From Hansschlegelia quercus (GTDB taxonomy: Bacteria; Pseudomonadota; Alphaproteobacteria; Rhizobiales; Methylopilaceae), in NCBI RefSeq assembly GCF_004310425.1, contig NZ_SIUB01000002.1:372001-436000 (forward strand): a stretch of DNA of 64,000 bases. The letters run 5' to 3'. Under the pieces are notes generated by a model. It worked only from the letters and a program-made list of their open reading frames with translations. It did not search any database and had not been told where the DNA came from. Position numbers and translations under genes: made by a program. Positions 54,748 to 64,000 of the stretch are shown here, one piece after another; position 1 is the first letter of the stretch, and each line of letters starts with the position of its first letter.

Positions 54748-55506
54748 ATGGGGGCGCTTGACTGGCTCTTCGCGCGCCCGATTGCCCATCGCGGCCTGCA
54801 CGATCGTGCGGCCGGAATTATCGAGAACACCCCGACCGCCGTCTCGCGCGCGATCGACGCCGGTTACGGCGTCGAGATCGACGTGCGCGAAACGGCGGAC
54901 GGGGGAATGGTCGTTATTCATGACGCCGTCCTCGACCGCCTGTCGGCTGAGACCGGCAGGATCGCCGTGAAGACCGTCGCCGAGCTCCGCCGGATCCCGA
55001 TCGCGCATTCCGGCGATCTCCTCTGGACGCTCGAAGACTGCCTCGACCTCGTGGGAGGCCGTGTCCCCCTTGTCGTCGAGATCAAAAGCCCGCGAAAGCA
55101 GGGCGTGGAGCATGCTCGCCGCGTCGCCGAACGTGTCGCGGAGCGGAGCGCCCAAGTGGCTTTGAAGTCGTTCAATCCCCGCGCCGTTCGCGTGGCGAAG
55201 CTCTATGCGCCTGCGATCCCGTGCGGCTTGGTGGGCCATGAGATCAAACTGGATCCAGCGGCCGGAAAGCCTCGCGGGGCGCGGGGACGCGCGCTTGCGA
55301 AAGCCCTCCGTTCTCCTCGGATCGACGAGATCGATTTCCTCTCCTGGGACATCGAGGACATCGATCGGCCCGAGGTCGCGGTAGCCCGGGCCTCCGGCAA
55401 GCCCGTGATGTGTTGGACCGTCAAGAGCCCGGCTGATCGGACGCGCGCCCTTGTTCATGCCGACCAGATAGTCTTCGAAGGTTTTCTACCCGATCAGAAC
55501 CGGTAA
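54748..55506 (+). CDS. Glycerophosphodiester phosphodiesterase
   Basis: 252 residues, TIM-barrel GDPD. Seen: PIAHRGLHDRAAGIIENT with catalytic His and Arg, YGVEIDVRETADGGMVVIHD with the metal-binding Glu, Asp and His, and LVVEIKSPRKQG. No signal peptide is seen, so it is probably cytosolic and acts on glycerophosphodiesters from phospholipid turnover. It follows ridA by 7 bp. Its last 13 bp overlap the stop end of the convergent barrel gene. Confidence 0.94.
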   Translation: MGALDWLFARPIAHRGLHDRAAGIIENTPTAVSRAIDAGYGVEIDVRETADGGMVVIHDAVLDRLSAETGRIAVKTVAELRRIPIAHSGDLLWTLEDCLDLVGGRVPLVVEIKSPRKQGVEHARRVAERVAERSAQVALKSFNPRAVRVAKLYAPAIPCGLVGHEIKLDPAAGKPRGARGRALAKALRSPRIDEIDFLSWDIEDIDRPEVAVARASGKPVMCWTVKSPADRTRALVHADQIVFEGFLPDQNR

Positions 55507-56294
55507 CCGACGCCGATCTGCCCGCCGGTCTCGTCCATGGCGTCGCGACCATATGGCGTGAAGAAGGCGGCGCCGAAGAGCTGCATCCGCTCGGTGAGAT
55601 CGTAGAACAGCGCGCCCTGAAGCTTCGCGATCCGCTGGCGCAATGGGTAGCGGCCGCTCCAACGCCCGGCGCCGATCGTGTTGAAGCTCTGGACGAGAGC
55701 GAGCCATCTTGGAGCGACCCGCAGCCCCACCGTGGCGTCGAGCCGCACTTCATCGGCCGGCGCCTTGCTGCGCCAGCGATAGCCAGCCTCGAAATCGGCG
55801 AAGCCCGCTATGCCGAAGGCTTCGAAGCTACGCTGGATCAGCCCGCGGACGTCGACCTGATCGTCGGTCTCGCCAATCGCAGCTACGCCTTCCTTCGCGC
55901 GCGCGCCAGCGACCACGACCGAGCCTTGCGCCGAGGCGATCCACGGCCCCTCATTGAACAGGCGGATGCGGGCGCCGAGTTCGGAACGTCCGAGGCCCTG
56001 CCGCTCGTGCCGACCGCCATCCTCGGCGCTGATCTTTTCAAGCTCGGTCGAGCCGAACAGCGTGACGCCGTCGCGAACGCCGTATTCGACGAAGACCGGC
56101 GTGTCGTACTTGGTGTAGCGGCCGCGCGGCTGACGCCGGCCCGTCGTATCGAAATAACGGTCGCCGTCGGTCATCAGCCCGGAAACGAAGAGCTTCACCT
56201 CGCCCCGCGGCAGAGTGTACGCGCCGGCTAATGCGGAGCTGGAGATCAACGCGGCCAGCAGGCCCCCGCCAATCTGCGACATGAAATACGCCAT
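55494..56294 (-). CDS. Predicted outer-membrane beta-barrel protein
   Basis: 266 residues. Seen: a signal peptide (SQIGGGLLAALISSSALAGA), then a strand-rich body with regular alternation and aromatic girdles (VKLFVSGLMTDGDRYFD, PVFVEYGVRDGVTLFG, SELGARIRLFNEGPW, VGLRVAPRWLALVQSF) and a C-terminal GQIGVGYRF ending in Phe, the barrel-assembly signature. I cannot assign a named family; it loosely resembles MetA/phenol-type transporters in layout. GGGGG lies upstream of the ATG at 56294. It is 99 bp downstream of the Hpt gene on the same strand and could be read from the tam transcript. Confidence 0.75.
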   Translation of the reverse strand: MAYFMSQIGGGLLAALISSSALAGAYTLPRGEVKLFVSGLMTDGDRYFDTTGRRQPRGRYTKYDTPVFVEYGVRDGVTLFGSTELEKISAEDGGRHERQGLGRSELGARIRLFNEGPWIASAQGSVVVAGARAKEGVAAIGETDDQVDVRGLIQRSFEAFGIAGFADFEAGYRWRSKAPADEVRLDATVGLRVAPRWLALVQSFNTIGAGRWSGRYPLRQRIAKLQGALFYDLTERMQLFGAAFFTPYGRDAMDETGGQIGVGYRF

Positions 56295-56733: not shown

Positions 56734-59700
56734 TCAGTAGTCCCACTCCGCGGCGACGCCCGCTGAGGCGTTGCCGGCGGCGCCCGCCTGGCCGCGCGCC
56801 TTGATGTGGTCCGTGAGATTGACGTCGAGCGTCACGCCGGTGTCCTCCGGCGTCGTGCCGGTCGAGAAGCCGAGATAGATGTTGTCGGAGATGTAGCGTC
56901 CGATGCCGAGCCCGAAGAGGCCGTCGCCGCCGCCGGATGCGATGTCCAGGCTGTCCACGCCGAGCCCCTTGCGCAAGCCTTCGAGCGGCCCGCCCCCGCC
57001 TCCGCCGACGCCGCTGTACTGTGCGACGGCCTGAGCAAGCGAGATCGCCTGACCGGGCGTCAGCTCGCCCGACGCCTTGTTGAACAACAGGCGAGCCAGG
57101 ACTTCGTCGGTCGGCAGCGTCGGGTTCGAGCCGAACGTAATCTGCGGCGCGGACGCCGTGCCGGTGATCAGCACCTGCGCGGTCACGTCCTTGGCCTGCG
57201 TCTCCGCGACGAAGTCCAGTGTCGGGTCGAGGTCGCCTGCGAACGCCACTGCCCCGCGCGTGAACTCCAGCCTGTGGCCCAGCACAGAGATGTTGCTGCG
57301 GCCCTCACGAAGCTGGAACGCGCCGACGGGAACAGGGGCGGCGGAGGTGCCGGTGATTTTGATCTGGGCGCCCGCCTCCGCGTTCATGCCAAGTCCGCGG
57401 ATGAAGATGCGATCGTTCGCCTGCACCGTGATGTCGAGCGTGGCGACGAAGGCGTCTTGGGTCTTCGCAGTCTTCTTGCCCGCGTTGACCGAGCCATACT
57501 GCTTCAGGACCGCCTTCGGCGCGCCTTGATGCCGGACGTCCGGCAGAGGCGTATAGCGGGCCGGGATCTTGTCGGGGATCTGGATCTCGACCGATCTCGT
57601 CCGGATCGTGCCGGTGACGACAGGTCGGCGCGCGAGCGGCCCCTGGAGCCTGAGATCGGCGTCGGTGATGGCCGTCACGATGTCGGTGCCGACAACTTCG
57701 GCATTGCTGGCGTTGAAGCGGATCTCGCCTGGGAAGCCGGCATCCGGGTTCACGGCGACGCGGCCGGAGCCTGAGATCGACCCGCCGTTGCGCGTGGTGG
57801 CCTTGAGCGACCGGACCTCGATGTTCGTGCCATTCGCCGCGATCGAAGCTGTCATGCCCTTCAGCTGAAGGCCGGCGGCGCGGTTGAAGTACGACCCGTT
57901 TGCGAGCGATCCGGCGCCGTTGATCCGCGGCGCGGAAGTCGGACCGCCGACCCTTACGTCGAAGCTCGCCTGCCCGTCGATACGGTCGCCCGAGACGGAC
58001 AGCGTGTCGTTGAGGAAGGCGAGCGGCGCCTTGCCCGCGACAGCGAGATCGAGGTCGCCCGCGCCGAGCGGGGCGGAGCCGCGCGCTGTCACGCTCAACC
58101 CCCGGGCGGCGGTCACGGTGGTGTCGGTTGTGACCCGCTTGCCCTGAAGCGCGCCCTTCGAGTCGATCTGGGCGACAGGCACGCCGGCGCTGCGGGTCGC
58201 CGCTGTTGAGAGCCCCGAGACCTTGAGAGAGTAGGTCCCGGTCGGGGCCGAAACCGGCCCGCCGACCTTGGCGTCGCCCGTCAGCGTGCCGTTTGCGCCA
58301 AGCCCGGGAGAAAAAGCGTTCGCGAGCGAGAGCGGCACGGCGCGGATCGCAACCGTTACGTCGAGATTGCCGGTCGAGCCGAGCGGCGCCGAACCGTTGG
58401 CGGTGACACGCAAGCCGCCCCCGCCGGTGACGGCGGTGTCGGTGGTCGCGCGCCCGTCGGCGAGCGTTCCCTTGGTGACGATCTCGAGCGGAGGAACGCC
58501 TCGGGCCTGCGCGCTCGTCAGGCCGGTGACGCGGAAGTCGTACGAGCCGGTCGGGGCCTTGATCGGTCCACCGACCTTGGCGCCGCCTACAAGCCGGCCA
58601 GCGAGTCCGAGGCTCGGCATTACGGCGTTGGCGATCGACAGCGGCAGCTCCGGCACGTCGATGTCGACGGCAAGGTCGCCGTCCCCGAGCGGGATCGCGC
58701 CCTTGGCGGTCGCCCGCACGCCGGCGCCGGTGATCGCGGTGTCGGTGGTCACGCGCTGACCTTCCAGCGCGCCCTTGGTGGTGATCTGCAGTGGCGCGAG
58801 GCCTTTGGCCTGTGCGGCGGTGAGGCCGGTGACCGTCAGGTCGTAGTCGCCGCGCGGCGCGTTGAGCGGGCCGGCGACGTTCGCCCTCCCCTTGAGCTCG
58901 CCGCCGAGTCCAAGCGCAGGCTGGAAGGCGTTGGCGAGCGCGAGCGGCAGCCGCTCGATGGCCACCGCCATATCGAGATCGCCCTGCCCCAGCGGCGCCG
59001 AGCCTTTGGCGGTCGCCTGAATGCCGCCGCCGCCGGCAATCGTGGTGTCGGTGGTTACGCGCTCGCCCTGGAGCTCCCCCTTTGTCGTCACCTGTAGCGC
59101 GGGCACGCCCTTGGCGGCTGCCGACAGCAGGTCGGAGATGCGCAAATCGTAGGAGCCGCGCGGCGCGTCGATCGGGCCGGCGACGGTGGCGTCGCCCTGC
59201 AGCTTGCCGCTCAGACCAAGATCAGGCCGGAAGCCGTTCGCAAGCGCCAGCGGCAGCTCGCGGATCGCGACGGCCATATCGAGGTCGCCTTTTCCGAGCG
59301 GCGCCGAGCCTTTCGCGGAAACGTTGATCCCGCCCTGCCCGTTGATCGTCGTATCGGTGGTGACGCGGTCGCCCTGAAGCGCGCCCTTGGCGACGACGGC
59401 CAGGGGCGGCACGCTCTTGGCCTGGGCCGCCACGAGACCGTCGATCGCGACGTCGTAGGTTCCGACCGGCCGCGCTACGGGGCCCGCGAGCTTCACGTCG
59501 CCGCGCAGCGTGCCGTCGAGGCCGAGGTCGGGGACAAAGGCGTTGGCGAGCGCGAGCGGCAGCTTCCCGATCGCGACGGCCAGATCGAGGTCGCCCTGCC
59601 CGATCGGCGCCGAGCCCTTGGCGGTCGCTTCGATCCCGCCGCCGCCTGTGATGGCCGCGTCGGTCGTCACGCGCTTCAGATCCGTCGCGCCCTTCGCCGT

Positions 59701-62700
59701 GACCTGTACCGGCGCGACGCCTTTGGCGCGACCGGATGTAAGGTCGACGACCGTGACGTCGTAATCGACGGCTGGCGCCTTGGCCGTGCCGCCGATGCGG
59801 GCGACGCCGCGCATGCCGCCTTCGATCTCGACGCCCGGCGCGAAGGCGTTCGCGTATTTCAGAGGCAGCGTGCGGAGGTTGACCGTGAGGTCGATCGGCC
59901 CGTCGCCGAGCGGCGCCGAGCCGTTGGCCGCGAGATCGATGCCGCCGCCTGTCATCGTCGTCTCGGTCGTCGCGCGGCGACCTTCGAGCCCGCCCCTTGT
60001 CATGACCGCGAGCGGCGGCAGGCCAGCGGCGGCGGACGCTTGCAGTTCGGTGATCCGGAGATCGTAGTTCCCGACCGGCGCGTCGATCGGCCCGCGCACG
60101 CGCACGTCGCCGCGGAGCGCGCCCTGCAGGCCAAGATCGGCCTGGACGGCATTGGCGAGCGCGAGCGGGAACTCGCGGATCGTAACCGTCATATCGACGT
60201 CGCCCCGGCCGAGCGGGGCCGAGCCCTTCGCGACGAGGCTGACTCCACCGCCTCCGGTGATGGTGGCGTCAGTCGTAACGCGATCGCCCTCGAGCGCGCC
60301 CTTGGCGGCGACGACCAGGGCCGGAACGCCCTGCGCCCTGGCGCTCGTCAGGTTCGCGATACGGAGATCGTAGGTTCCCTTCGGTCCGGAGACCGGGCCG
60401 GCGATGCGGGCGTCTCCCTGGAGCGCTCCACCGAGCGCGAGGTCGGGCACGAAAGCGTTGGCGAGCGCGAGCGGCACGCTGCGCAGCGCCACCGTCATGT
60501 CGAGATCGCCGTTCCCGAGCGGCGCCGAGCCGTTAGCCACGATACTGAGGCCGCCGGCCCCGGTGACAGTCGTGTCGGTCGTGACGCGATCGCCTTCGAG
60601 CCGGCCCTTGGTCGCGAGCGCCAGCGGCGGGATCTTGGCGTCGCGGAGCTGCGCGATGGAAAGGTCTGAGCCGCGAATGTCGAACACCGCCTGAGGCGCG
60701 GACGCGAGTCCGGTGACTTTGGCGTCGCCCTCGACGAAGCCGCCGAGGCCGAGCTCCGGTGAAAAGGCGTTGCCGAGCGCAAGCGGCAGTTCGCGCAGCG
60801 CCACGTCGAGATCGAGCTGCTGGCCCGCCTTGCCCTTCACGCTCAGCAGGCCGCCATCGATCGCCCGAAGCGCGAACGCGTCGATCGCGATGTCGGAGCC
60901 GATCACCCTGACCTTCGCAGGGCCGGTCAGCCGGGCGGACTTGCCGCCGCCGGTGAGATCGAGCCGCGAGAGGTCGATGCGCGTCTCGGCAGGGGCATAG
61001 ACCACTCGCCCGTCGGCGGCGACGGAGGAGCCTTTGGCGCCTGCGTTCAGCGAGACGTCCATGCCGTCCGGCGCGCCGCGAGCGATGAGGGACACCGTGT
61101 CGACCGCCTGCCCGCCGGCTGCGATCGACGAGCCGTTGACCGTGCCGTCGATCGTCACTTTGCCCGTGGGATCAACCACGGTCGCCGCTACGTCGAAAGC
61201 GCCGATCCGCGCTCCGGAGGCTGCGATATCCGCGCCCTTCGCGCCGATCACGACGCGTTGCACGCCGTTCTCCGTCGACAGCGCGACGTCAGCGTTGAGC
61301 CGCCCCGCGAGCTCGGTCAGCGCGAGCGCGCCGACTTCGGCGAGATCGGGTGAATCCAGCGTGATGCGCCCGGTCGCGAGGCCCTTCGGCGTGACCGACA
61401 GGTCGCCGCGCGCCGTCGTCGAGGCGATCGCCAGGTCGAGACCTTCGAGGCGACGCGCGCCATCGTCTTCAGTGACCAGCCGCCCGGTCCCACGCAGGGG
61501 CTTGCCGTCGAGCGAGCCGCCGAGCCCGAAGGCCGCGCCGAGCGAGCCCGTGACGTCGGTCGCGTCGAGGTCGAGCTTCAGGTCCTTGAGCGCGCGGCCC
61601 ATGACTTCGCCCGAGGGGATCGACAGCGTCGACTTCACGCCGAGATCGTCAAGCCGGCCGGTCAGCGCTGCGTCGACGTGCGCCTGACCCGATGCGCGGG
61701 AATCGAGGCGTGAGACGTCGTCGACGTCCGCCTTCGCAACGACGTTCGCCCGCTCGCGGGTCACCGAACCGTCGGCGGTGACGACCACATGGTCGCCGCG
61801 CGCGTCGAGGCCGGAAATCGTGAAGGCGCCGTCATCGCCTCGGGTCACGCCGCCCTTGATCGTGAGCGAGCCGCCGGTCAGCCCGTCGACCTGCGCGACG
61901 CCGGTCTTCAGCTGGCTCGCCGAGCCGTTGAGGCTCGCCGACAGCCGCGAGAGGTCGTAGGCGAGGTCGAAGTCCGAGGAGAGATCGACGGCGCCGCCGA
62001 GCGCCATGCCGGTCAACGGCGCGACGGTGGCGAGATCGCCGGCCTTGAGGGTCGCGTGGCCCTTCGCGGCTGTGGGCGACACGTCGCCGGCATAGGACGC
62101 CGCGACGTCGGCGAGACGCACGTCGGAGCGCTCGATCGTGGCCTCGCCCTTGAGGTTGGTCACGCCGGCGGCCGATATGTTGAGGGCGCGGCCGAGCGCA
62201 AACATGCGGTCGTCGGCGAACTTCACGCCGTCCGCGTCGGCGTCGATCACGAAGGCGACGCGGGTGTTGTCATCCGAAAGGGCGCCGTTCGGCGTCGCGG
62301 TGAGCTTGATGCGCGCAGTCTCGGCCTGACCCTGCTCCGCGGCGAGGCCGCCGCCGTCGGCGGTCGCCGTGATGACGGGATGATCGAGCGGTCCCTTGGC
62401 CGTCCCGAGCACGCCGAGCGAGGCCCAGCGCAGACCGGGAGGAAGCACCGCCGCGAAGCGCGCGGGATCGCCCGCCTTCACGTCGAAGGAGAGGTCGACC
62501 GTCTCGGCCGCCGTGTCGACTTTGCCGCGCGCGCCGAGGCGGACGGACGGCGCCTCGATCGTGACGTCGGTGAGGTCAATCGGCCCCTCGTCGGGAACGA
62601 GCGCCTCGGCCGAAATCTTCGTCATGCCGTCGACCAGCGGCGTGATCGAAGGATCAACCAGCCGCCCGACGTCGCCATTGATCCCGAGCGTCACGCGCCG

Positions 62701-63522
62701 CGCCCTGCCCTCGCGGGTCACGTCGGCCGCGCCGTCCATGCGTCCTTGGGTTCCTGCGACGACGGCGAGCTGCGCACGAAGCGCGTCGAGCGTGCCGGCG
62801 GCGTCGAGGCCGATGTCGATCGGAGGAAGGCCGGGGATGTTGGCCATGCGCGCGACGAGGCCGCCGGCCGGTTCGCTGCCGCGCAGAGACAGCTCGACCC
62901 CATTGGTCGCGGGGATGAACCGGCCCTTGCCTCCGATCCGGCCGGGGATTGCGTCGATCCGCTTGAGCTCGAACTCCGCGGAGACGCCGTCGGAGGCCTT
63001 GCGCAGGGTGGCGGCCGCGTTCGCCGTCAGCTTGGCGGGCGTCCCGATCACGGGCTGCGCGAGATCAAGCCCGGCGAGGTTGAACTTCTCGAGGTGTATC
63101 TCGATCGGCAGTTCGGGGAACAGCGGCGCGTTCGGGTCCGGCGGCGGCAGGTTTTCGGTTTGCGCCTCGTAGACCGGCTGGCGCGCGACCTTCACCTCGC
63201 CGACGTCGACGAGGTTCACGACGAGCTTGCGGGAATAGAGCTGAAGCGGGGACCAGAGCAGGCGCGCGCGGTCGACTGTCAGCCACTCGCCCTGCCGGTC
63301 GGAAAGCTTCACGTCCTTCAGCGTCAGGTCGTAGGGGAACGAGCCTTCGATGCCGCCGATCGCGATCTTGGTGTCGTCGGAGCTTGCGTATTTCGACGTC
63401 AGGCTCGCGATCGTCGACAGGCCCTGAGCAGTCGACAGGTAGAACAGCGCCGCGCCCAGCACGAGCACAGGGATCAGCAGCAGGATCCCAAGAACGATGA
63501 GGACGCGCTTGAATATGGCCAT
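56734..63522 (-). CDS. tamB: Translocation/assembly module TamB, expanded by nine tandem 102-residue units
   Basis: 2,262 residues against 1,259 in E. coli TamB. It bridges inner and outer membranes and, with TamA, is implicated in barrel insertion and phospholipid transport. Seen: an N-terminal signal anchor (VLIVLGILLLIPVLVLGAAL, about 8-27), AsmA-like/TamB strand-rich sequence to about 911, then nine near-regular units at residues 912-1831 with hallmark blocks LPLALANAFxPDLGL, GxLxGDAxVAGP, RVTTDTxITGGGG and AKGSAPLG, then the conserved C-terminal DUF490 domain (about 1832-2262, ending VAAEWDY). The unit itself is ordinary in alphaproteobacterial TamB; its amplification is not. The TGATG overlap with tamA shows coupling. 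Confidence 0.95.
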   Translation of the reverse strand: MAIFKRVLIVLGILLLIPVLVLGAALFYLSTAQGLSTIASLTSKYASSDDTKIAIGGIEGSFPYDLTLKDVKLSDRQGEWLTVDRARLLWSPLQLYSRKLVVNLVDVGEVKVARQPVYEAQTENLPPPDPNAPLFPELPIEIHLEKFNLAGLDLAQPVIGTPAKLTANAAATLRKASDGVSAEFELKRIDAIPGRIGGKGRFIPATNGVELSLRGSEPAGGLVARMANIPGLPPIDIGLDAAGTLDALRAQLAVVAGTQGRMDGAADVTREGRARRVTLGINGDVGRLVDPSITPLVDGMTKISAEALVPDEGPIDLTDVTIEAPSVRLGARGKVDTAAETVDLSFDVKAGDPARFAAVLPPGLRWASLGVLGTAKGPLDHPVITATADGGGLAAEQGQAETARIKLTATPNGALSDDNTRVAFVIDADADGVKFADDRMFALGRALNISAAGVTNLKGEATIERSDVRLADVAASYAGDVSPTAAKGHATLKAGDLATVAPLTGMALGGAVDLSSDFDLAYDLSRLSASLNGSASQLKTGVAQVDGLTGGSLTIKGGVTRGDDGAFTISGLDARGDHVVVTADGSVTRERANVVAKADVDDVSRLDSRASGQAHVDAALTGRLDDLGVKSTLSIPSGEVMGRALKDLKLDLDATDVTGSLGAAFGLGGSLDGKPLRGTGRLVTEDDGARRLEGLDLAIASTTARGDLSVTPKGLATGRITLDSPDLAEVGALALTELAGRLNADVALSTENGVQRVVIGAKGADIAASGARIGAFDVAATVVDPTGKVTIDGTVNGSSIAAGGQAVDTVSLIARGAPDGMDVSLNAGAKGSSVAADGRVVYAPAETRIDLSRLDLTGGGKSARLTGPAKVRVIGSDIAIDAFALRAIDGGLLSVKGKAGQQLDLDVALRELPLALGNAFSPELGLGGFVEGDAKVTGLASAPQAVFDIRGSDLSIAQLRDAKIPPLALATKGRLEGDRVTTDTTVTGAGGLSIVANGSAPLGNGDLDMTVALRSVPLALANAFVPDLALGGALQGDARIAGPVSGPKGTYDLRIANLTSARAQGVPALVVAAKGALEGDRVTTDATITGGGGVSLVAKGSAPLGRGDVDMTVTIREFPLALANAVQADLGLQGALRGDVRVRGPIDAPVGNYDLRITELQASAAAGLPPLAVMTRGGLEGRRATTETTMTGGGIDLAANGSAPLGDGPIDLTVNLRTLPLKYANAFAPGVEIEGGMRGVARIGGTAKAPAVDYDVTVVDLTSGRAKGVAPVQVTAKGATDLKRVTTDAAITGGGGIEATAKGSAPIGQGDLDLAVAIGKLPLALANAFVPDLGLDGTLRGDVKLAGPVARPVGTYDVAIDGLVAAQAKSVPPLAVVAKGALQGDRVTTDTTINGQGGINVSAKGSAPLGKGDLDMAVAIRELPLALANGFRPDLGLSGKLQGDATVAGPIDAPRGSYDLRISDLLSAAAKGVPALQVTTKGELQGERVTTDTTIAGGGGIQATAKGSAPLGQGDLDMAVAIERLPLALANAFQPALGLGGELKGRANVAGPLNAPRGDYDLTVTGLTAAQAKGLAPLQITTKGALEGQRVTTDTAITGAGVRATAKGAIPLGDGDLAVDIDVPELPLSIANAVMPSLGLAGRLVGGAKVGGPIKAPTGSYDFRVTGLTSAQARGVPPLEIVTKGTLADGRATTDTAVTGGGGLRVTANGSAPLGSTGNLDVTVAIRAVPLSLANAFSPGLGANGTLTGDAKVGGPVSAPTGTYSLKVSGLSTAATRSAGVPVAQIDSKGALQGKRVTTDTTVTAARGLSVTARGSAPLGAGDLDLAVAGKAPLAFLNDTLSVSGDRIDGQASFDVRVGGPTSAPRINGAGSLANGSYFNRAAGLQLKGMTASIAANGTNIEVRSLKATTRNGGSISGSGRVAVNPDAGFPGEIRFNASNAEVVGTDIVTAITDADLRLQGPLARRPVVTGTIRTRSVEIQIPDKIPARYTPLPDVRHQGAPKAVLKQYGSVNAGKKTAKTQDAFVATLDITVQANDRIFIRGLGMNAEAGAQIKITGTSAAPVPVGAFQLREGRSNISVLGHRLEFTRGAVAFAGDLDPTLDFVAETQAKDVTAQVLITGTASAPQITFGSNPTLPTDEVLARLLFNKASGELTPGQAISLAQAVAQYSGVGGGGGGPLEGLRKGLGVDSLDIASGGGDGLFGLGIGRYISDNIYLGFSTGTTPEDTGVTLDVNLTDHIKARGQAGAAGNASAGVAAEWDY
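58030..60789 (-). repeat. Nine tandem 306-bp coding repeats inside tamB
   Basis: The nine units average 102.2 codons over 920 codons. Corresponding blocks recur at a steady interval: on the plus strand the segment GCGTTGGCGAGCGCGAGCGG or a close variant appears near 58928, 59540, 60149 and 60455, which are multiples of 306 bp (303 in the fourth unit). Identity is visible at DNA level, not only protein level, so amplification or gene conversion was recent or is continuing. Unit 4 (LPLKYANAFAPGVEI) and unit 8 are the most divergent. A tenth, decayed copy (APLAFLNDTLSVSG) starts the C-terminal domain. Confidence 0.92.
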
Positions 63523-64000
63523 CAGAACGACTGCCCGATGCTGATGTAGAAGGCGACGCGGGAGTCGTTCTTGCTCTTGCCGACGATTGGCGTCGCGACG
63601 TCGGCTCGGATCGGCCCGATCGCCGTATAGTAGCGCAGGCCGATGCCGGCGCCGACGCGGATGTCTTCCTTGAAGCTGGGAATCGATTTGTCGAACGCTG
63701 CGCCGGCGTCGACGAAGGGCACGACGCCGATCGTGTCCGTCACCTTGATGCGCGCCTCGATCGAGGTCTCGAGCAGGCTGCGGCCGCCGATCGGCTGGTC
63801 TTCGTCACACTCCAGCGCCTTCTTCGGCTTCGGATTGATCGGCGTGCAGAACGGGCTCGCGCTCTGATAGGCGAAGCCGCGGATCGAGCCGCCGCCGCCC
63901 GCGAAGAAGCGGCGGTTCGCCGGCACGTCCTCGAGCGATTTGGGGCCGACCATCGAGCCGAAGCCGATCTTGCCGGCGAGGATGTAGCGCTTGTCCTCGT
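63522..64000 (-). CDS. tamA: Outer-membrane barrel TamA (C-terminal part; start lies beyond the window)
   Basis: About 159 residues are visible, reading from the right edge (EDKRYILAGKIGFGSMVGP) to a stop at 63522. BamA/TamA-type C-terminal barrel strands: FFAGGGGSIRGFAYQSASPF (the conserved GG-RGF loop), VVPFVDAGAAFDKS, GAGIGLRYYTAIGPIRADVA and the terminal VAFYISIGQSF ending in Phe. The N-terminal POTRA domains lie outside. The GGG-SIRGF loop and the GIGLRYYTAIGPIR block identify the Omp85 superfamily, and the TamB partner downstream identifies TamA. Confidence 0.95.
   Translation of the reverse strand, partial: EDKRYILAGKIGFGSMVGPKSLEDVPANRRFFAGGGGSIRGFAYQSASPFCTPINPKPKKALECDEDQPIGGRSLLETSIEARIKVTDTIGVVPFVDAGAAFDKSIPSFKEDIRVGAGIGLRYYTAIGPIRADVATPIVGKSKNDSRVAFYISIGQSF

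Follow-up and report, generated by a model that had tools for sequence, protein, structure and literature searches.

The window analyzed here, a 64,000-nucleotide stretch of the Hansschlegelia quercus genome (contig NZ_SIUB01000002.1, positions 372,001 to 436,000), carries a tamB gene whose product contains nine tandem units of ∼102 residues. We consider it fairly likely that this protein serves as TamB in a TamAB pair of the ordinary kind, with TamA binding, lipid transport, and outer membrane protein assembly assumed from the family, and that a single module, duplicated internally and in frame, has lengthened its central lipid groove. The tamB open reading frame (positions 56734 to 63522 of the window, minus strand, 2262 aa) and the adjoining end of tamA are divided as follows.

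63522..63998, minus strand: tamA 3' end (Omp85 barrel), truncated by the window end; PF01103, E value 2.4e-32
60787..63522, minus strand: TamB N-terminal part, aa 1-912, with putative membrane anchor and N-terminal groove; 912 to 923 aa long in 12 species; residues 520 to 912 modelled
60475..60786, minus strand: unit 1, aa 913-1016, by unit profile
60169..60474, minus strand: unit 2, aa 1017-1118, by unit profile
59866..60168, minus strand: unit 3, aa 1119-1219, by unit profile
59560..59865, minus strand: unit 4, aa 1220-1321, by unit profile
59254..59559, minus strand: unit 5, aa 1322-1423, by unit profile
58948..59253, minus strand: unit 6, aa 1424-1525, by unit profile
58645..58947, minus strand: unit 7, aa 1526-1626, by unit profile
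58336..58644, minus strand: unit 8, aa 1627-1729, by unit profile
58027..58335, minus strand: unit 9, aa 1730-1832, by unit profile
56734..58026, minus strand: TamB C-terminal part, aa 1833-2262 plus stop codon; PF04357 at aa 1905-2261; model matches the TamAB cryo-electron microscopy chain 9xdc_B

The nine units occupy aa 913 to 1832, within 1 to 2 residues of the limits given in a preliminary description of this DNA (912 to 1831), and start at aa 913, 1017, 1119, 1220, 1322, 1424, 1526, 1627, and 1730. Their lengths range from 101 to 104 aa, 102 aa (306 bp) being the commonest. Scored against a profile built from all nine, each unit reached 133 to 158 bits, while the rest of the protein always stayed below 3 bits; 18 positions are invariant across the units. 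Self-identity of the array was 36% at a lag of 102 residues and 40% at a lag of 407 (equivalent to four units), compared to a best-lag identity of 13% on average and 15% at most in 200 shuffled arrays. Tandem Repeats Finder detected only 2.6 copies (58841-59646), an undercount due to divergence of the units, and the nine-unit profile was used in its place to define them. The period that Tandem Repeats Finder reported, the profile scores, and the lag identities together confirmed the nine tandem ∼102-residue units with a 306-bp period that had been described. Similarity at the DNA level, which had also been claimed, was found in pairwise comparisons of the units (56 to 71% DNA identity, 39 to 66% protein identity, and a synonymous divergence [dS, NG86] of 0.60 to 1.24). 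Residues 280 to 447 of the isolated array were matched by the Pfam TamB model itself (E value, 1.4e-11), pointing to a resemblance between the units and the C-terminal groove of TamB. Comparison of the unit profile with the sequences of solved structures returned six matches, the best of which (flagellar hook-associated protein 2; E value, 0.35) was taken as chance.

Identification of the protein as TamB was borne out by Pfam, whose model PF04357 matched at aa 1905 to 2261 (whole-protein E value, 1e-57; 196.6 bits versus a cutoff of 22.4), and by the adjoining tamA gene. The 3' end of tamA (Omp85 match at 63525-63998) lies directly upstream, and its last base is the first base of tamB; in the relative G010, a 655-aa frame at the tamB locus carries both Omp85 and POTRA domains according to Pfam. 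Reading of the TamB N terminus by eye revealed a hydrophobic segment near aa 7 to 30 that fits a membrane anchor. In its PF04357 C terminus, hydrophobic N terminus, upstream tamA, and predicted amphipathic strands, the window protein is similar to Escherichia coli TamB and YhdP; unlike E. coli TamB, which has ∼1260 aa, it comprises 2262 aa and nine near-equal tandem modules. The C-terminal end of E. coli TamB contacts TamA (PMC12800296).

Unit number varies within the genus. In our sample of 13 genomes, 12 have an intact tamB frame, and the remaining one (G007) was left out of lengths, trees, and comparisons with AsmA and MCE proteins. TamB frames of relatives were picked by their match to the C-terminal part of the window protein, with start codons assigned by script; for G036, G044, and G110, from outside the genus, the assigned starts look doubtful. 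Four units are present in G006, G009, and G011, six in G003 and G004, nine in the window, 10 in G005, 11 in G002, G008, G010, and G012, and 12 in G001, four being the smallest number in any intact array of the genus. Copy-number variation, which had been suggested as possible between strains, was found between species (4 to 12). TamB length increased with unit number at a slope of 102.57 aa per unit (r = 0.9999; 12 species), with the flanks nearly fixed at 912 to 923 aa (N-terminal part) and 428 to 431 aa (C-terminal part). Arrays ranged from 412 to 1228 aa (threefold) and whole TamB proteins 1.5-fold, the longest having 2571 aa. A genus with 4, 6, 9, 10, 11, and 12 equal modules in otherwise collinear proteins represents a natural TamB length series.

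AlphaFold2 models were obtained for aa 520 to 1423 (N-terminal flank and units 1 to 5; pLDDT 89.0, pTM 0.55) and for aa 1063 to 2262 (including units 3 to 9 and the C-terminal part; pLDDT 83.0, pTM 0.44). Every complete unit was predicted to consist of a short helix followed by six strands, with a second short helix in some, and the predicted strands carry on into the next unit and into both flanks. Alternation of hydropathy along the strands was 2.88 in units 1 to 5 and 2.64 in the N-terminal flank, compared to 1.49 and 1.61, respectively, after shuffling within strands; none of 500 shuffles reached the observed value in either case. In Foldseek searches, the model of the C terminus matched the TamAB cryo-electron microscopy chains 9xdc_B (E value, 1.8e-10) and 9xdd_B (1.7e-9) as well as the TamB beta-taco structure 5vtg (E value, 0.017; probability, 1.00). 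It had been proposed that equal units lengthen the groove in fixed steps. An equal stretch of amphipathic strands per unit was indeed predicted, and neither predicted secondary structure nor model confidence pointed to units that fail to continue a single groove; from the models, we infer that the units would form one groove lengthened stepwise.

With a strand spacing of 0.48 nm, six strands give an estimated rise of at most 2.9 nm per unit. E. coli TamB is 17.8 nm long in an AlphaFold model and 24.6 nm when stretched in simulation (PMC11014939); scaled by the residue number given above, these lengths correspond to 1.4 to 2.0 nm per unit. In the explanation that we favor, a module of ∼102 residues with a short helix and six strands would have been duplicated in frame and internally. 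The added modules would continue one sheet and, as elsewhere in TamB, accommodate lipid acyl chains, and the conduit would thus be longer and hold more lipid. For E. coli TamB, a continuous U-shaped hydrophobic core with up to 15 lipids in simulation has been described (PMC12800296). Since two other envelope proteins keep their length (see below), the surplus contour is probably absorbed by supercoiling, tilting, or lateral reach from the inner membrane anchor to TamA and not by a wider periplasm. Lipid capacity, slack, or no benefit at all are the candidates for what the extra length may bring, and for any particular benefit the probability is well below one half.

In its predicted architecture, the protein is similar to the RBG bridges VPS13 and ATG2, in which the number of beta modules sets the groove length (PMC7613979). 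Human VPS13 isoforms contain 12, 13, or 15 RBG domains; growth of VPS13 by duplication of central modules has been proposed, and the number of RBG domains may be matched to the width of the contact (PMC7613979). Judging from our models, tandem beta-groove modules would set the length in TamB as well, but with six strands and a helix per module versus the five strands of an RBG domain (PMC7613979), and with a unit number that varies among species of one genus. VPS13 was not named among the 50 PDB matches listed per model in the structure search, which involved no sequence comparison; LPD-3 (9cap_A) matched the C-terminal model with an E value of 0.006 and a probability of 0.08. TamB and beta-groove bridges are known, and tandem module expansion of TamB is new as far as we found: none of the papers listed (open-licence; titles and abstract openings) addressed tandem expansion or variable unit number in TamB. 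Whether the length of a lipid bridge must match the gap that it crosses is a question common to TamB, YhdP, and VPS13-type proteins.

A tree of the TamB ends separated a clade with 4, 4, 4, 6, and 6 units from a clade of seven species with 9 to 12. In a tree of individual units from 9 of the 12 species (G009, G010, and G011 were dropped as near copies), grouping was mostly by position and not by species. First units of all species formed one group, and so did last units. The third unit of G006, which has four, grouped with the second-last units of long arrays (95/75), and its second unit with the second units of G001, G008, and G012; the second units of the window, G005, and G002 fell outside this group. 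Since the units of G006 match the first, second-last, last, and some second positions of long arrays, the common ancestor of the genus probably had about four units. In the six-unit species, units 2 and 4 grouped together with unit 2 of G006, and units 3 and 5 are 64 to 65% identical between the two species, which suggests duplication of a two-unit block; counting against such a block, units 3 and 5 stay apart in the unit tree. Between the window and G005, the difference is a single unit adjacent to unit 7, and between G001 and G012 a single unit at position 3. As read from the tree, in which many forks are weak because the units are short, the inferred gains and losses are all internal to the array. 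Ratios of nonsynonymous to synonymous divergence (dN/dS) of orthologous units from six species pairs were 0.00 to 0.56 (≤0.35 in 40 of 45 comparisons), indicating purifying selection. These results suggested that the units are old and that the array has grown as duplications in its center were slowly fixed, rather than as an adjustable repeat. Unit-by-unit orthology combined with equal counts had been named as the mark of an old, fixed array; within the genus, the orthology was largely found, but equal counts were not.

Outside the genus, the nine-unit profile was searched against the order and the class, with up to 12 candidate stretches scored per genome. Of 397 genomes of the order, 202 matched at an E value of 0.001, and 26 had at least four matches (counted by hand), half of them (13) belonging to the genus of the window. 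In the class, 29 of 385 genomes matched, and the 28 besides the window's own had one match each. Among five genomes of the sister genus, a single unit each is present in G013 and in G017; G014, G015, and G016 yielded neither a TamB match nor a unit match. Wherever the unit is recognizable, a single copy is the usual state, in line with the view that alphaproteobacteria normally carry it once or a few times; TamB proteins lacking a profile match may hold a unit too diverged to detect. Beyond the genus, the choice of threshold affects the unit counts: they drop by one in nine genomes (G145, G034, G351, G027, G115, G195, G044, G080, and G254), where the last weak match lies inside the C-terminal part, a correction that hardly shifts the correlations reported below. 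In G143, counted among the 26 genomes of the order with at least four matches, the TamB frame (on C38) contains only three unit matches, and four more lie apart from it in a second frame of 969 aa (C39:182132-183292).

Genus g26 (family f24) has 7, 7, 8, and 8 units with a period of 107 in four species and a single unit in the fifth, G395, which branches as sister of those four (94/95 and 100/100; L073 versus L044, L069, L070, and L071). In a second unit tree, built from 19 of the 41 genomes with TamB read and including two of the four multi-unit g26 species, the units of the window's genus formed one group (95/92), and those of the g26 species G040 and G288 grouped with the single unit of G395 and one unit of G301. 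The genus of the window and g26 would thus most simply represent two independent expansions, with loss in G395 as the alternative. G395 and its sister clade with 7 to 8 units provide a second natural contrast. Candidates for further expansions are genus g61 (3 to 7 units, or 3 to 6 after threshold correction; period, ∼101) and G351 (9 or 8 units; period, 101), whose units the tree does not place clearly.

Several observations weigh against a groove lengthened in the way that we propose; they concern the structural models, the possibility that length has no function, and signs of a link between TamB length and envelope width. As to the models, the one covering the N-terminal flank and units 1 to 5 matched TamAB weakly (9xdc_B; E value, 0.019). 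The N-terminal flank model best matched ApoB100 (E value, 2.2e-7) and LptD (9e-4) with TM-scores of ≤0.25, which we read as indicating no more than a long amphipathic sheet. Moreover, pTM was 0.55 and 0.44, and the continuation of the sheet across unit borders is deduced from strand content.

As to function, as soon as two units were present, internal duplications could simply be tolerated, the sheet just continuing, and be fixed by drift, leaving length without a function of its own. This explanation fits nearly as well as the one that we favor, and we regard it as a genuine, if rather unlikely, possibility. It agrees with growth that appears internal and slow, with the lack of a visible correlate within the genus, and with the expansion in g26. 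Purifying selection on orthologous units speaks against it, as do the retention of 9 to 12 units throughout one clade (seven species) and of 4 or 6 throughout the other (five species) and the presence of at least four units in every intact array of the genus.

As to envelope width, the preliminary description had suggested that the array might act as a ruler matched to the width of the periplasm; TamB would then exactly reach TamA. If TamB tracked periplasm width, other envelope-spanning proteins should change in length too. We therefore compared single-MCE proteins, found by PF02470 and measured as residues after the MCE domain (no match in two of 40 genomes, G177 and G022; the first of three was used in G195). 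They are presumed counterparts, identified by domain match only, of Brucella MpcD, whose start aligns with MlaD and which was modelled as an envelope bridge (PMC12436622). Like TamB, MpcD and the single-MCE proteins of Hyphomicrobiales are proposed envelope lipid-channel proteins with large length variation between organisms; unlike TamB, MpcD is alpha-helical after its MCE domain (PMC12436622), and single-MCE length is fixed in the window's genus and in g26, where TamB is variable. In all 12 species of the window's genus, with 4 to 12 TamB units, 410 or 411 residues follow the MCE domain; in all five species of g26, with 1, 7, 7, 8, and 8 units, the figure is 340. In eight species of g61, this length was 922 to 1504 residues and correlated poorly with unit number (rho = 0.10, or 0.20 after threshold correction). 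The rho of −0.80 within the window's genus reflects a difference of one residue. An AsmA-like paralogue likewise spans 1167 to 1238 aa in 11 species (G010, in which no whole frame was seen, is omitted), and the larger gaps within this 71-aa spread lie mostly in a disordered-looking, Pro/Ala-rich tail. TamA-like frames found by motif measured 655 to 707 aa between stop codons in 11 congeners of the window (that of G010 was checked with Pfam) and 640 aa in G013; the same motif search found none in G017. Based on the E. coli TamB figures (PMC11014939), 12 versus 4 units would demand ∼11 to 16 nm more periplasm.

In favor of a ruler, TamB lengths change by exact whole units, and matching to gap width has been suggested for eukaryotic RBG bridges (PMC7613979) and for the MpcD channel in Hyphomicrobiales (PMC12436622). 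Unit number and MCE length were also weakly correlated across 52 genomes (rho = 0.35, P = 0.01) and 24 genus means (rho = 0.46, P = 0.02), both without correction for kinship; the values were 0.34 and 0.46 after correcting the nine counts and 0.48 without the window's genus. The MCE tail is longer in the window's genus (410 to 411 residues) than in the sister genus (320 in G013, 223 in G017). Length of the AsmA paralogue (L080-L092) correlated with that of TamB (r = 0.78; 11 species), which we did not count as support since the slope was 0.05 aa/aa, the larger gaps are mostly confined to the tail, and the species belong to two clades. That the MCE protein and the AsmA paralogue report envelope span is a presumption. 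With the MCE protein and the body of the AsmA paralogue unchanged while TamB ranges from 4 to 12 units, the ruler did not hold up at the species scale, where it is unlikely; at the genus scale it is possible, and overall we judge it improbable. TamB length may be uncoupled from envelope width and itself evolving, the array setting capacity, flexibility, or sideways reach and not span, a view that we hold tentatively and at somewhat less than even odds. If so, lipid bridges would not have to be stretched tight across the gap.

At 1038 to 1620 aa, the single-MCE proteins of g61 (family f18; L119, L121, L128, L132, L137, L140, L142, and L143) have three- to fivefold the length of Brucella MpcD (331 aa; PMC12436622). 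As straight helical needles, they would probably not fit into a periplasm ∼30 nm wide (PMC12436622). The single-MCE protein of G254 appeared internally repetitive by eye.

Slipped recombination, which had been proposed to change the unit number and would have to shift it within species, received no support from the comparison of species, and such shifts seem very unlikely to us. The tandem layout with its 306-bp DNA period and the exact matches shared by units of one species would be compatible with it; the longest of these matches, however, are only 15 to 38 bp. Units group mostly by position across species, so the unit tree (9 species) gave no sign of homogenization within species. The closest species, whose N-terminal parts are 91 to 96% identical in the three pairs measured, share equal counts (11 in G008 and G010; 4 in G006, G009, and G011). 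Phase-variable repeats combine near-identical DNA with counts that differ between close relatives, whereas here DNA identity between units is 56 to 71% and the closest species have equal counts.

An assembly or annotation artefact, which the tamB frame of G007 broken inside the array might suggest, can practically be dismissed, since the window units differ at 34 to 61% of residues and are therefore not multiplied or collapsed reads, and 12 genomes have intact frames with whole-unit lengths. In G007 (a single contig of 88% completeness), 11 unit matches, one of them partial, are spread over two frames, perhaps because of a sequencing error.

Two further genes lie beside tamB. One (55494-56294, minus strand) looks by eye like an outer membrane protein gene, its match to Phenol_MetA_deg being under the cutoff. 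The other (54748-55503, plus strand) encodes a glycerophosphodiester phosphodiesterase (PF03009; E value, 7.7e-23).

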